Of a stretch of DNA of 59,904 nucleotides, positions 3,922 through 28,929 are shown in pieces (the stretch's first letter is position 1; the number at the start of each line of letters is the position of its first letter). Made by a program: the position numbers and the translations under genes. This stretch comes from Thermobifida cellulosilytica TB100. GTDB lineage: Bacteria; Actinomycetota; Actinomycetes; Streptosporangiales; Streptosporangiaceae. The notes beneath the pieces are model-generated. The model saw only the letters and a program-made list of their open reading frames with translations, had not been told where the DNA came from and searched no databases. The stretch is from positions 179,739 through 239,642 of the forward strand of contig NZ_KQ950185.1 of assembly GCF_001517975.1 (NCBI RefSeq), written 5' to 3'.

Positions 3922-3929
3922 AGGGTGGG

Positions 3930-4002
<73 letters not shown>

Positions 4003-22058: not shown

Positions 22059-23921
22059 ATGCCCCACGAACACACCCCCGCCGCAGCGGACGACGACCGG
22101 TTCGACTACGACGTGATCGTCGTCGGCTCGGGGTTCGGCGGCTCGGTCAGCGCGCTGCGCCTGACCGAGAAGGGCTACCGGGTCGGCGTCCTGGAGGCCG
22201 GACGCCGCTTCACCCCCGAGACCCTGCCGAAGAACTCCTGGGACCTGCGCAACTTCCTGTGGGCCCCCAGCCTGGGCCTGTTCGGTATCCAGCGCATCCA
22301 CCTGCTGCGCAACGTCATGGTGCTGGCCGGGGCGGGCGTGGGCGGCGGCTCCCTCAACTACGCCAACACCCTGTACGAGCCGCTGGACGACTTCTACGAC
22401 GACCCGCAGTGGCGCGACATCACCGACTGGCGCGAGGAGCTCGCCCCCTTCTACGACCAGGCCAGACGCATGCTGGGGGTGCGGACCAACCCCACCGTCA
22501 CCCCGGCCGACGTCCAGCTCCGCAAGGCCGCCGAGGCCATGGGGGTCGGCTCGACCTTCCGCCTGGCCCCGGTGGGCGTCTTCTTCGGCGACGGGCGCGA
22601 CGGCGCGGCCGAGGGCCCCGTCGCGCCCGGAGAGGCGGGCGGCGACCCCTACTTCGGCGGCGCGGGACCGGTGCGGCGCGCCTGTCTGGAGTGCGGCGAG
22701 TGCATGACCGGCTGTCGGCACGGCGCCAAGAACATGCTCACCGAGAACTACCTGTACTTCGCCGAACGCAACGGCGCGGTGGTCCACCCCATGACCACCG
22801 TGGTGCGCCTGCGGGAGCGCCCCGCCTCGCACGGCGGCGGGTACGCGGTGGACACCCTGGTCACCGGGGCGCCCCGGACCCGGCGCAACGCCCGCACCTT
22901 CACCGCCCGCCAGGTGGTGCTCGCCGCCGGGACCTACGGCACCCAGCGCCTGCTGCACGCCATGCGCGACTCGGGCCTGCTGCCCCGCATCTCCTCCCGA
23001 CTGGGCACCCTCACCCGCACCAACTCCGAGTCCCTGGTCGGCGCGATGACCAAGGCGGTGCGCCCGCCCCAGGACTTCACCAGGGGGGTGGCGATCACCT
23101 CCTCGATGCACCCCGACCCGCACACGCACATCGAACCGGTCCGCTACGGCAAGGGCTCCAACGCGATGGGACTGCTGACCACCATGCAGGTCCCCGGCGG
23201 GGGCAGCGTGCCGCGCTGGCTGCGCTTCCTCGGCGCCGCCGTCGCGCACCCCGCCGTGTTCCTGCGCAGCCTGTCGGTGCGCAACTGGTCGGAGCGGACC
23301 ATCATCGGCCTGGTCATGCAGTCGCTGGACAACTCGCTGACCACCTACACCAGGCGGGGGCTGTTCGGCGGGCAGGTGCTCACCTCCCGGCAGGGCCACG
23401 GCGCGCCCACCCCGACCTGGATCCCCGCCGCCCAGGAGTTCGCCACCCGGATGGCCGAGCAGATCGACGGATTTCCCGGCAGCAGCGTCAGCGAGATCTT
23501 CGACATCCCGCTGACCGCGCACTTCCTGGGCGGCTGTCCGATCGGGGCCACCCCGGCCGAGGGGGTCGTCGACCCCTACCACCGGCTCTACGGGCACCCC
23601 GGCATCCACGTGGTGGACGGCTCGGCCGTCACCGCGAACCTGGGGGTCAACCCGTCCCTGACGATCACCGCGCAGGCCGAGCGCGCCATGGCGCTGTGGC
23701 CCAACCGGGGCGAGCCCGACCCGCGGCCCGCTCCCGGCTCCCCCTACCGGCGGGTGGCGCCGGTCTACCCGAAGAACCCGGCCGTCCCCGCCGGGGCCTT
23801 CGCCGAACTGCGGTTCTCCCGCCGGACCACGCTGCCGCTGGCGCCCGGTCCGGCGGCGCGGAACGGGGCGGATCCCGCCGCAGCGCGCGCCGACGCCTCC
23901 CCGCCCTGCGCGGAGGGCTGA
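22059..23921 (+). CDS. GMC oxidoreductase, cholesterol-oxidase (ChoD)-like flavoprotein
   Basis: A 620-residue FAD enzyme of the GMC family. The dinucleotide-binding loop VVGSGFGGSVSALRL lies at about residues 20-34, GAGVGGGSLNYANTLYEPLD follows, and the C-terminal GMC region includes AHFLGGCPIG and NLGVNPSLTITAQAER. Near residue 209 there is CLECGECMTGCRHGAKN, a cysteine cluster also present in mycobacterial ChoD-type proteins. Likely activity is oxidation of a 3-hydroxysteroid or other alcohol; the true substrate is unknown. ATG 22059 follows CCGGGAGTC. No signal peptide is visible. The gene is convergent with the TROVE gene. Confidence 0.85.
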   Translation: MPHEHTPAAADDDRFDYDVIVVGSGFGGSVSALRLTEKGYRVGVLEAGRRFTPETLPKNSWDLRNFLWAPSLGLFGIQRIHLLRNVMVLAGAGVGGGSLNYANTLYEPLDDFYDDPQWRDITDWREELAPFYDQARRMLGVRTNPTVTPADVQLRKAAEAMGVGSTFRLAPVGVFFGDGRDGAAEGPVAPGEAGGDPYFGGAGPVRRACLECGECMTGCRHGAKNMLTENYLYFAERNGAVVHPMTTVVRLRERPASHGGGYAVDTLVTGAPRTRRNARTFTARQVVLAAGTYGTQRLLHAMRDSGLLPRISSRLGTLTRTNSESLVGAMTKAVRPPQDFTRGVAITSSMHPDPHTHIEPVRYGKGSNAMGLLTTMQVPGGGSVPRWLRFLGAAVAHPAVFLRSLSVRNWSERTIIGLVMQSLDNSLTTYTRRGLFGGQVLTSRQGHGAPTPTWIPAAQEFATRMAEQIDGFPGSSVSEIFDIPLTAHFLGGCPIGATPAEGVVDPYHRLYGHPGIHVVDGSAVTANLGVNPSLTITAQAERAMALWPNRGEPDPRPAPGSPYRRVAPVYPKNPAVPAGAFAELRFSRRTTLPLAPGPAARNGADPAAARADASPPCAEG

Positions 23922-25450
23922 CCTCCGTGCAGGGCGGGCCGCCGGGGACGCCGCGGCGGCCCGCTCAGCCCGGCGAAGGTGTGCCGGTTGCCGGTGCCGG
24001 ACGGGCCGTGGCCGTACCTGTAGCCGACCAGGTTCCAGGTGTACACCGGCACCCGTCCGGGCACCTCCGCCGTGGGGTCCCCGCCCCTGGCCTGCTCGTC
24101 GGTGACGATCACGACGCGGTCGTGGCCACGGTAGTTGTCGCGGACCGCCCGCGCGGTGTCGGTGCCGCCCAGCTCGCCGAACCGCTCGACCACCCGCAGC
24201 AGCGGCTCGTCCGCGCGGAACCGGACCGGCCGGTGGGTGGTGCCGAACTCGACCAGGTCGGCCCGCTCGGCCCGCATCGCCAGCGCGGCCCCGAACACCG
24301 CTGCGGCGTCCGCCCAGGTCAGCGCGGACTGCGCGGAGGTGTTGCAGAACATCGACCCGGAGCGGTCCACCAGGACGAGCGTGCGTCCGGGCAGTCGGGG
24401 CACGTTGGCCAGCGACGCCTGCAACGCCCGCTCCAGCGCCGCAGCCCAGCGCGGACCGGCGGCGCGGTAGGCGGACAGGTAGCGCATGGGCAACTGGCGG
24501 GAGCGCGCCCCCTCCGCCGGGTCGGCCAGGTACTTGGCCACCCGCTCGGCCTTCTCGTCGCTCAGCCCCGCCTGGTCGAAGTTGCGCAGGTTGCGCAGCC
24601 GCGCCATGGACCCCATGGACGGCAGGACGGCCCGCCACGCGACGGCGTCCATCGGCCCCTGCAACCAGCCCGCCACGGACTCCCAGATCATGCCGGCCTG
24701 CGCCAGCTTCCTGGCGGCGTTCGCGCGGCGCAGCAGCGCGCGCCGCGTCGCGGGACGCAGCGACGTCAGCTCGGCCCGGGCGCGCAGCATCTCCAGCCCC
24801 TTGGGGACCGGCTTGCCGCGTCCGTGCCTGCGGTCCAGCGCGTGCCGGAACAGCAGGCCCTGCCGGGCGTCGGCGGCCCTCGGGTGGGTCAGCTCGATGA
24901 CGTCGCCGAAGCGGAAGGCCCGGGAGTCGGTGTCGTACTTCAGCAGCGACTGCTCGGTGTAGAGGCGGACCACGGCGTCGGCGACGCCGCGCTTGACGGG
25001 CTTGGGCACCGCCCTCCCGTAGTGCGCGGTCCAGTAGGCCAGCGCCTCGCCGGGCTCGTCGGGACGGAGCAGCACCGAGTCGACGAGCTGCCGGTTCCCG
25101 CCGTGCTCCCCCGCGGCCAGGCGGGCCTGCACCGCCTCCAGCGCGCCCACCAGGGGCGCCGAGCGCAGGCCGACGTGGCTGCGCAGCCAGCGCAGCAGGC
25201 CGCGCAGCCAGTCGAAGTCGCCCACGGCCAGTCGGGCGACCAGGTCGCGGTAGCGCCGGTCGCGGTCGTGCGCCTTCTCGTAGAAGGTTCCCTCGCCCAC
25301 CATGTTCGACACTGCGAGCAGGAACAGTTCGGAGCGCGCGTCGCGCGCGTGGCCGAGGGCTCCTTCGTAGGTCGTGCCGGAGGCGACGGCCTCGGACCTG
25401 ACAGGACTGCGCCCGATCGTGGTCGCCGTGACCCGGTTGAACTTGGCCAT
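23765..25450 (-). CDS. rsr: TROVE-domain RNA-binding protein (Ro60/Rsr orthologue)
   Basis: The 561-residue product has the two-part structure of Ro60: an N-terminal HEAT-like TROVE ring (about residues 15-350, with RDARSELFLLAVSNMVGEG, then GDFDWLRGLLRWLRSHVGLR) and a C-terminal von Willebrand A domain with the MIDAS motif LVDRSGSMF near residue 361 and GGTDTARAV. Ro proteins are cytosolic rings that bind Y RNAs and the ends of misfolded RNAs and, in bacteria, work with exoribonucleases. Y-RNA-like elements lie just upstream. ATG 25450 follows GCGAGGTGCAGT. The family-like sequence ends at HTFAGLS (about 23963); the remaining 66 codons read antisense through the terminator and the 3' end of the GMC gene, so the native stop seems to have been lost. 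Confidence 0.9.
   Translation of the reverse strand: MAKFNRVTATTIGRSPVRSEAVASGTTYEGALGHARDARSELFLLAVSNMVGEGTFYEKAHDRDRRYRDLVARLAVGDFDWLRGLLRWLRSHVGLRSAPLVGALEAVQARLAAGEHGGNRQLVDSVLLRPDEPGEALAYWTAHYGRAVPKPVKRGVADAVVRLYTEQSLLKYDTDSRAFRFGDVIELTHPRAADARQGLLFRHALDRRHGRGKPVPKGLEMLRARAELTSLRPATRRALLRRANAARKLAQAGMIWESVAGWLQGPMDAVAWRAVLPSMGSMARLRNLRNFDQAGLSDEKAERVAKYLADPAEGARSRQLPMRYLSAYRAAGPRWAAALERALQASLANVPRLPGRTLVLVDRSGSMFCNTSAQSALTWADAAAVFGAALAMRAERADLVEFGTTHRPVRFRADEPLLRVVERFGELGGTDTARAVRDNYRGHDRVVIVTDEQARGGDPTAEVPGRVPVYTWNLVGYRYGHGPSGTGNRHTFAGLSGPPRRPRRPALHGGQPSAQGGEASARAAAGSAPFRAAGPGASGSVVRRENRSSAKAPAGTAGFFG
23901..23937. terminator. Bidirectional hairpin between convergent GMC and TROVE genes
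   Basis: Arms of 16 bases at 23901-23916 and 23922-23937 pair with a single G-U and enclose the stop codon of the GMC gene in the loop. A second GC-rich stem (GGGCCGCC/GGCGGCCC, 23937-23962) follows directly. This is the expected position for shared termination of the two convergent genes. Confidence 0.5.
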
Positions 25451-25485: not shown

Positions 25486-25677
25486 CGCCGGGCGGGGCGG
25501 CGTGCGGAGAGGGACGTCCGAGATCGGGACGGCCGCGGAGTTTCGGCGCTCTGGACCGCTGAGCTACGCCGGGAGGAGTCCCGGCGACGGGATTCGAACC
25601 CGCGTCTCCGCCTGGAGAGGGAAGTATCCGCAGCCTGCGCACCGGACGTCCCACCGCGCACGCCGCCCCGCCCGGCG
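25486..25677 (-). ncRNA. yrlA: YrlA-like bacterial Y RNA with permuted tRNA module
   Basis: On the minus strand the ends pair in a 21-bp stem (25657-25677 with 25486-25506), then after a 4x4 internal loop in a 10-bp stem GGGACGTCCG/CGGACGTCCC (25643-25652 with 25511-25520). The top is a circularly permuted tRNA: a closing stem GCGGAG/CTCCGC, a T-arm GCGGG-TTCGAAT-CCCGT, a 7-bp acceptor-like hairpin GCCGGGA-CTCC-TCCCGGC, and a D-arm GCTC..GAGC with AGCGGTCCA. In YrlA RNAs this module mimics tRNA while the long stem binds Ro. Position 36 bases upstream of the TROVE start in the same direction supports the call. It may be processed from the TROVE leader. Exact ends are unknown. Confidence 0.8.
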
Positions 25678-25761
25678 GGGGCGCACGGCCCTGACAGTAA
25701 CGGAGAGGACTTTCCGGACGCCAGGAATTTTCTGTGCATATAGCCCCAGAAAGGACAGTCC

Positions 25762-25946
25762 AGGGCACGCCGGGGAGTCCGAGATCGGGAAGGCGGCGGT
25801 CATGGGACCGCGGACCCCGGTACCGGGGCGGCGGCCGCGCATTCCTCGGAACCGTACGGCCCTGGGAGTGGCAGGACACGCCCAGGACCTCGGCGGCTCC
25901 GGGAAGTACCCGTCACCGGCGCACCGGACTCCGCCGTGCGTGCCGG
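25762..25946 (-). ncRNA. Second Y-RNA-like element, non-tRNA top
   Basis: It shares with the YrlA-like RNA the motifs GTCCGGTGCGC, GGTACTTCCC and CCCGATCTCGGAC in the same order and orientation. Ends can pair as GGCACGC/GCGTGCC (25938-25944 with 25764-25770) and GGAGTCCG/CGGACTCC (25925-25932 with 25774-25781). The top is different: it has a CCCCGGTACCGGGG palindrome and a CCTGGG..CCCAGG stem and no T- or D-arm. I infer a paralogous Ro ligand with another effector module. No promoter was resolved. Confidence 0.55.
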
Positions 25947-26061
25947 GCCTCCCGAGACCAGGGCGCCGACGGGCTGCACCGCCGTGGCGGTGTTTCTGGG
26001 AGTTGAACCAGATGAACCGAAGTAACCGTCGACTTCGCACCGGAAGGCCGTGCTGCCGCAC
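25936..26061 (-). ncRNA. Third Y-RNA-like element
   Basis: The motif TTCCGGTGCG..GACGGTTACTTC matches the 5' motifs of the two elements to its left, and TGGTCTCGG matches their CCGATCTCGG. A nine-pair helix GGCCTTCCG/CGGGAGGCC (26041-26049 with 25946-25954) lies where helix 2 lies in the others, and CGTGCG/CGCACG can pair outside it, although this outer arm overlaps the end of the second element. The top contains a small CTGG-TTCAACTC-CCAG hairpin and a CACCGCC..GGCGGTG hairpin. Weakest of the three; could be a remnant. Confidence 0.4.
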
Positions 26062-28594: not shown

Positions 28595-28929
28595 GGTCCG
28601 ATTATCGGAGATGCACCCCGTACACCGAAAAGGCCGAAAGGTCCTTGGGGGTCCTTCCGGAACCCCGACCGCGGAGCCGGTGGCGCTCCCCCCGGCCCCG
28701 GAGGCGCCCCCCGCGGCCGTCCCCGGGTACAGACCCGCTCTGAGCTGCGGATCCGCCGTCGGAAACGGCGTTTCGCACCGGCCGGTCCCGGGGCGGAGCG
28801 GGCCTCGAACCCGCTCAACCTTGTTCACTCTCAGCGATCACGGCACTAACCGTCCGCTATCTCGGCAATCCGTTACCAACTGGGACTCTTCCTACGTGAC
28901 AAAACCGTTACGGCAGTCATTGGCCAAAT

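Follow-up and report, generated by a model that had tools for sequence, protein, structure and literature searches.

A probable, divergent YrlA-type Y RNA with a permuted tRNA-like module upstream of the rsr gene of Thermobifida cellulosilytica

Circularly permuted tRNA genes of algae carry the 3′ half before the 5′ half and mature to working tRNAs. A comparable order is known among bacterial Y RNAs: the Salmonella Y RNA (PDB 6CU1) has been termed a circular permutation of tRNA (PMC11472068), so the permutation itself is not new. The Y RNA of D. radiodurans tethers PNPase (PMC6181284, PMC8394870), and its PNPase-binding part is a two-hairpin module, one hairpin of which resembles a T arm (PMC6181284). 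In Mycobacterium smegmatis, Rsr binds a Yrl RNA at its lower stem (PMC4726728, citing Chen et al. 2014), and modification of YrlA by tRNA enzymes is reported among PMC8394870, PMC6181284, PMC4726728 and PMC7790460.

Here we analyze a window, a stretch of 59,904 nt of Thermobifida cellulosilytica TB100 (contig NZ_KQ950185.1), in which an earlier note had placed a YrlA-type Y RNA, here called Y3, next to a TROVE gene. Y3 shares with YrlA (Rfam RF02553; Salmonella YrlA, 6CU1) the order of T arm, acceptor-like hairpin and D arm, a Ro-type basal stem and an adjoining Rsr gene; it differs in its actinomycete Ro stem, its 21-bp outer helix and its place in tandem with other Y RNAs. One of these, Y1, has the two-hairpin layout of the D. 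radiodurans Y RNA (the Rsr-PNPase tether, RYPER), but no Rfam Y RNA family matched Y1. The M. smegmatis Yrl RNA, likewise an actinobacterial Y RNA with an Rsr, was compared from its description in that paper. As in the algal permuted tRNA genes, the 3′ half of Y3 comes first, but Y3 bears no sign of maturing to a working tRNA. Judged by its sequence, Y3 is a divergent YrlA-type RNA and not a member of RF02553 as curated; what sets it apart is the tandem array, the long basal helix and the actinomycete Ro stem.

The rsr gene and the probable Y RNAs upstream of it

The gene downstream of Y3 encodes P0001, a protein with TROVE and vWA regions and a MIDAS-like DRSGS motif (Table 1). Pfam places TROVE at 36 bits over 60 residues (cut-off 23) and vWA_Ro60 at 21.7 bits, below its cut-off of 27.7. 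A profile of 26 P0001 relatives matched PDB entries 9kop, 9l5y, 2nvo, 9nen and 1yvp with E values from 9e-49 to 1e-36 (1.1e-42 for 2nvo, the D. radiodurans Rsr). The predicted model of P0001 (mean pLDDT 83.8, pTM 0.72) matches the same TROVE/Ro60 structures (Foldseek E 5e-13 to 2nvo; fold match TM 0.64). The likeness to Ro60/Rsr (2nvo; 9l5y, of Thermus phage phiLo; 1yvp) extends over nearly the whole of P0001, at 14-25% identity in the fold alignments, and the nearest relative found is 77% identical. These matches bear out the assignment of the neighbor as a TROVE/Ro60-type protein. The last ~25 residues (23915-23960, minus strand) are unlike the tail (DAAFxMIPLLEAG-like) common to four compared relatives, whichever frame is read, and the open frame continues into a convergent GMC oxidoreductase gene.

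Table 1. Positions of rsr, the Y RNAs and the parts of Y3 in the window
Feature	Position	Strand	Basis
rsr, encoding the Rsr/Ro60 orthologue P0001 (TROVE and vWA with DRSGS)	23915..25450	-	Pfam, PDB profile, predicted fold
Y3, YrlA-type Y RNA with permuted tRNA module	25486..25677	-	held-out model R1 and fold z
Y3 outer basal helix, 5′ strand	25657..25677	-	21/21 paired with 25486-25506
Y3 outer basal helix, 3′ strand	25486..25506	-	pairs with 25677-25657
Y3 Ro-type stem, 5′ strand CCGGUGCGCAGGCUGCGGAUACUUC	25621..25645	-	motif conserved in relatives; pairs covary
Y3 Ro-type stem, 3′ strand, ending in GAUCUCGG	25518..25541	-	covariation and R1 match
Y3 hairpin at anticodon-arm position, 5 bp, 4-nt loop	25605..25618	-	predicted fold; loop not a tRNA-like anticodon loop
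Y3 T arm, 5 bp, loop UUCGAAU	25587..25603	-	fold and R1 match
Y3 acceptor-like hairpin, 8 bp closed by CUCC	25567..25586	-	fold; stem covaries in relatives
Y3 U8-A9 and D arm UAGCUCAGCGGUCCAGAGC with G18G19 inside	25548..25566 (D arm 25564-25548)	-	R1 match
GTTACTGTC, possible -10 region of a Y3-rsr transcript	25693..25701	-	in block alignable with G001
Y1, T arm (25995-26012) and acceptor-like hairpin (25977-25992), no D arm	25946..26047	-	R1 43.3 bits, E 1.8e-8
Y2, probable third Y RNA, module not clearly tRNA-like	25773..25931	-	both Ro strands

On the minus strand, a 643-nt gap runs from the stop codon (26094) of a sugar-kinase-like gene with SBD_N/NBD_C domains to the rsr start codon (25450). 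Y3 occupies its last part, and the start codon follows 35 nt downstream of Y3 behind a GAGG-like site. All three minus-strand matches to the Ro 5′ motif in the window (26041, 25925 and 25643) fall within this gap, and the single plus-strand match has no partner. Y1 has a homologue in the same-genus genome G001 that scores 51.2 bits with R1, a covariance model built from relatives (see below), and a scripted search recovered its layout, T arm then hairpin, in 15 of the 22 Y RNAs of middle length, those of the window and G001 among them. In Y2, the Ro motif at 25925 is followed 116 nt further on by GATCTCGG; its R1 score of 21.6 bits is no better than that of real tRNAs in the window (20.1 and 19.7), and we therefore accept it as a probable, not a firm, third member. 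Rfam returned chance matches only on Y1 and Y2. From their motifs and layout, the gap appears to hold two, or up to three, tandem Y RNAs, of which the earlier note had Y3 but missed Y1 and Y2. A sigma-70 promoter scan found nothing and did not pick up GTTACTGTC.

In the predicted fold of Y3, read inward, the 21-bp helix is followed by 2 bp and then by a 10-bp helix of GGGACGUCCG with CGGACGUCCC (25652-25643 with 25520-25511). Under the module lies another helix, of 9 bp. Both end stems described from the letters alone are thus in the fold, the longer with 21 of 21 positions paired, and T arm, acceptor-like hairpin and D arm all lie in that order on the minus strand where the earlier note had put them. 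The acceptor-like hairpin has the 7 bp first described, but an extra closing A-U pair makes it 8. Positions such as U8-A9 and G18G19 are named by tRNA numbering. The anticodon stem is degenerate in Y3, though formed openly in other YrlA-type RNAs: it has 3 pairs in the Rfam alignment, and open and closed registers both form poorly.

Folding energy proved a poor guide to these cores. The whole 192 nt of Y3 folds at -135.7 kcal/mol (z -8.75; 0 of 200 shuffles equal or better), whereas the core without the 21-bp helix has a z of -1.76, with 12 of 200 shuffles equally good. Core z values alone are ordinary or modest in all three elements (Y1 -1.65, Y2 -2.70, Y3 -1.76), and we rejected them as proof of the cores. 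Because the outer helix dominates the energy of Y3, the evidence for its tRNA-like core is homology and not folding energy. The helix is itself unusual: its extension score of 29 exceeds those of all 161 relatives scored (maximum 23). Such a helix, together with the G+C richness of Y3 and a 69% match of the stretch to its own opposite strand, is what a palindrome or terminator devoid of RNA function would present; no terminator-like site was found on the minus strand here, however, and the conservation and covariation described below are specific to sequence and strand, leaving this explanation with next to no probability.

A search with the YrlA covariance model gave a divided answer. RF02553 was the best match to Y3, in the right orientation and over the full model, at 28.6 bits (E 3e-4 in 401 bases), but the gathering score is 69 bits, and Y3 is accordingly absent at gathering. 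At that cut-off Rfam gave no match in 20 loci holding such Y RNAs, and RF02553 does not align the closed anticodon arm of relatives (in the one case examined, model positions 24-84 only). Neither ARAGORN nor Rfam finds a tRNA at the Y3 locus, and Y3 does not have the canonical tRNA order with a free acceptor end. Elsewhere in the window, ARAGORN reports a tRNA-Leu(gag) at 28790-28867 (minus strand) that has no Rfam match at gathering, and two tRNA-Lys(CTT) genes (2101-2174 and 3928-4002, minus strand) lie less than 2 kb apart with identical Rfam score and aligned sequence.

Conservation upstream of Ro60 genes

A scan of genome contigs with P0001 yielded 411 relatives, of which the best 80 were kept as Ro60 loci. 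The 71 kb upstream of these best 80 of 411 genes contain the Ro 5′ motif in 182 copies, as compared with 9 in 727 kb of control sequence; sense copies number 182 and antisense copies 1. The motif is present in 78 of the 80 loci, as one copy in 7, two in 42, three in 25 and four in 4; 2 loci have none. Sorted by what the motif opens, 74 of the 182 copies are long RNAs with T and D arms, 42 are short (a Ro stem with a loop of at most 40 nt) and 45 belong to neither kind; the 3′ half of the remaining 21 was not found.

From 67 full RNAs we aligned 37 that were non-redundant, leaving the window out (alignment A1). RNAalifold gives 33 consensus pairs. Two-sided compensatory change is seen at 20 of them, chiefly in the acceptor and Ro stems; none of the four pairs of the D arm varies, nor do two of the five in the T arm, and these are uninformative. 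The model R1, built from A1, recovered the held-out Y3 at 113 bits (E 5.5e-25, 25512-25649), with no non-standard pair marked. Compensatory change among relatives, which the earlier note had named as a check, is therefore strongly positive, and the R1 score, the covariation and the Ro60 neighbor together support its central claim, a Y RNA of YrlA type whose tRNA module is permuted and whose neighbor is a Ro60 orthologue. These sequence comparisons show Y3 to be conserved in its basal stem, its permuted tRNA module and its position upstream of a Ro60 gene, with covariation in the stems. A lower stem of the Rsr-binding type, formed from both ends, is present in Y3, and Rsr would bind the RNA there.

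The same evidence bears on whether the order of T arm and D arm is an accident of tRNA genes lying in tandem or of tRNA debris. Such a pattern does arise, in tRNA-Asn arrays of relatives (L146, L157, L158 and L160) and in tRNA-Gly arrays of the genus. The four tRNA-Asn arrays have no Ro motif and were dropped from the set of permuted cores, and partial R1 matches in the genus proved to be tRNA-Gly/Val and Asp/Phe arrays, not Y RNAs. In Y3, by contrast, neither program finds a tRNA, the two acceptor strands pair together, the anticodon arm is not tRNA-like, and a covarying Ro stem brackets the module; we regard a chance arrangement of tRNA genes as hardly credible.

Nor does the leader position make Y3 a likely regulator in cis. 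Control by an rsr mRNA leader that binds Rsr and thereby sets the translation or stability of its own message would fit the end of Y3 35 nt before the start codon and the 182 to 1 bias in orientation. But 67 of the 80 leaders (best 80 of 411) have two or three Ro motif copies with differing modules, the strong conservation of the tRNA-like parts exceeds the needs of a leader switch, and published work treats bacterial Y RNAs as small RNAs to which Rsr binds (PMC4726728). We consider cis regulation unlikely.

Across 250 genomes of the family, P0001 has a match in 84 and the RNA model (at 1e-7) in 101; both occur in 71 genomes, TROVE only in 13 of those 84, RNA only in 30 and neither in 136 (Fisher p 6.7e-25, a nominal value since the genomes are related). 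Ten of the 30 RNA-only genomes were opened, and in all ten a second TROVE subfamily adjoins the RNA. This actinomycete subfamily (L127-L136; ~550 aa) shares 24 and 26% identity with P0001 in two of its members and is accompanied by Y RNA arrays of its own, whose Ro stem differs (GGGUCGAAG...).

Within the genus, TROVE is present in two of four genomes sampled, that of the window and G001. G001 keeps the Y1 homologue, its rsr was matched in three pieces, and the R1 model found no full YrlA-type RNA there, so that Y3 is dispensable in this genome; rsr and its Y RNAs (loci L085/L089) may be decaying together. In the two genomes without TROVE (G002 and G003), no full-length R1 match was better than E 0.07, and the best matches covered the tRNA-like part only, on tandem tRNA genes. 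A sample of 396 genomes of the phylum gave 15 with a model match, one of which (G601) matched only on a tandem tRNA-Asn array; among 11 loci checked from this search, TROVE lies within the fetched stretch in 9, the exceptions being L147 and L155. Four genomes of one genus (family f20, 1.5-1.7 Mb; L147-L150) have 152-nt model matches of 47-49 bits, and in L147, the sole one checked of the four, the fetched stretch contains no TROVE gene.

Anticodon arms in relatives

All loci searched held 137 distinct permuted cores; none was found in 1.85 Mb (both strands) of mononucleotide-shuffled sequence. We kept the 116 with the Ro 5′ motif and dropped 21 lacking it as written, several of which resemble Y RNAs and carry GATGCG, a variant of the motif (e.g. 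L012, L029, L095). In a fixed register, the anticodon arm is closed in 71 of these 116 permuted-tRNA Y RNAs: a 5-pair hairpin, at least 4 pairs of which form, carries a 7-nt loop and is separated from the T arm by a 5-nt variable region. Another 35 are open, with the anticodon stem formed between nucleotides 3′ of the D arm and nucleotides 5′ of the variable region, and 10, Y3 (L001) among them, fit neither register; some closed arms with a 4-nt variable region are missed in this way (L013 and L017, counted as other; L024 and L077, among those dropped). The open-group stem leads into the Ro stem, as in Rfam's YrlA. In the Salmonella structure the anticodon stem is reportedly replaced by a kinked stem, in agreement with this group.

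Full 5-pair closed stems number 51, versus 17.9 after reshuffling (maximum 29 of 2000), and full 5-pair open stems 45 versus 9.5 (maximum 21); 10 of the 116 cores form five of five pairs both ways. In 59 distinct closed arms (alignment A2) the stem is paired in 93.9% of cells, a figure biased by the selection for at least 4 of 5 pairs; the fair measures are the unselected reshuffle just given, two-sided changes and slid controls. Two-sided changes occur at three of the five pairs, one of which is CG in 38 arms, GC in 19 and AU in 2. Taken together, the anticodon and T stems hold 46 two-sided cells versus 10.1 when shuffled and at most 6 when slid, although, with related sequences, the counts do not represent independent events. 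U-G predominates at the two outermost pairs, which is odd for a tRNA.

The loops of the closed arms resemble those of tRNAs. U33 is present in 69 of 71, versus 17 of 35 in the open group read in the same register; a purine at 37 is common in both (66 of 71 and 33 of 35) and so gives no evidence for an anticodon loop. The genome of the window has 54 tRNA matches; the reference was 52 distinct tRNAs with 46 distinct loops, taken from fetched stretches. Forty-seven of the 71 closed loops (11 of 28 distinct loops) are identical to a real tRNA loop, versus a column-shuffled mean of 27.6 (maximum 36 of 2000) and 4 of 35 open-group loops read in that register. Positions 36-37 follow the habit of tRNAs, with U36 and A37 in 46 of 71 loops and G36 and G37 in 14 (p 0.004 on distinct loops), and the most variable positions are 34 and 35, with 21 anticodons represented.

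Closed arms accompany both Ro motif types (62 and 9), the second of which comes only from loci of the second TROVE subfamily, and by eye they are also present in Gordonia phage VanLee and a Rhodococcus plasmid. R1 matched nine of ten phage or plasmid Ro60 loci opened, the one without a match being Karimac (L220). GenBank annotates a tRNA-Arg(tct) in VanLee (L217:1703-1842) where the model finds a Y RNA with a closed anticodon arm upstream of a Ro-like gene, and a tRNA-Arg(cct) in Streptomyces phage GiJojo (L216:1764-1912) where it finds a Y RNA, again upstream of a Ro-like gene; both annotations are likely misannotated Y RNAs. We found no description of anticodon-bearing bacterial Y RNAs in the literature searched, a search with the primary papers outside its scope, and a prior description is possible.

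Such arms are what one would expect if these Y RNAs acted mainly as decoys or sensors for anticodon nucleases or tRNA-handling factors, with Rsr as their holder and not as the anchor of a PNPase tether. The anticodon loop would then be the bait in relatives, and Y3 would retain the elbow and acceptor region only. The predominance of closed arms with U33, their covarying stem, the excess of real tRNA loops over shuffled ones with variation greatest at 34-35, and the Ro60-Y RNA pairs that phages also carry all favor this explanation, and a competitive-inhibitor role of the YrlA tRNA-like domain against an anticodon nuclease has been proposed (PMC7790460). However, Y3 itself lacks a proper anticodon loop; of the five arm pairs, three draw on a TTC kept in the Ro strand of closed and open groups alike, and two are mostly U-G; and no nuclease is linked here. 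Further, PMC7790460 reports that no YrlA fragments were detected in Salmonella, which fits an inhibitor and not a sacrificial bait. We hold a decoy role to be possible but doubtful.

A proposed tRNA-shaped surface on a Ro60 handle

The reading we prefer, and consider very probable, is that Y3 is the YrlA-type Y RNA of the adjacent Rsr, set in a tandem array, with a stem that would grip Rsr and a module that would tether a second factor. The module would offer that factor a tRNA-shaped surface and so hold it to Rsr; having no free acceptor end, it should not be chargeable. We know of no partner of the YrlA tRNA-like module. For tethering as such, the precedent is the D. radiodurans Y RNA with PNPase (PMC6181284, PMC8394870). 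On this reading the array would present different surfaces on one handle, a T-arm/acceptor minihelix in Y1 and a fuller tRNA mimic in Y3, and in many relatives the anticodon loop may have been added as a third tRNA-like surface. Y3 may be transcribed together with the rsr leader and set free when the 21-bp helix is cut; the 35-nt distance to the rsr start codon and the helix itself would fit such leader processing.

A broader proposal can be made only tentatively: that actinomycetes and their phages keep arrays of Y RNAs with graded tRNA mimicry on a Ro60 platform, with anticodon loops as exchangeable baits or inhibitors. The series would run from a bare stem through a T-arm/acceptor minihelix and a tRNA with an opened anticodon stem to a four-armed permuted tRNA. 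The loops would have been copied or have converged from real tRNA loops, 34-35 changing fast while U33 and the rules at 36-37 stay, and their targets might be anticodon nucleases or enzymes that modify or handle tRNA. The lineage of the window would then have let the anticodon end decay, and one of its Y RNAs would have acquired a very long basal helix. A bolder form, in which a complete permuted module is cut and ligated into a working tRNA, has no support.

Because Rfam at its curated cut-off is blind to these RNAs in the 20 loci tried while the motif lies upstream in 78 of 80 Ro60 loci (the best 80 of 411), a large share of bacterial Y RNAs is missed by the standard model. Arrays that share a Ro handle and differ in module make it testable which tRNA surface recruits what, and anticodon-bearing relatives, with loops of known identity, make competition for tRNA-damaging enzymes directly testable.
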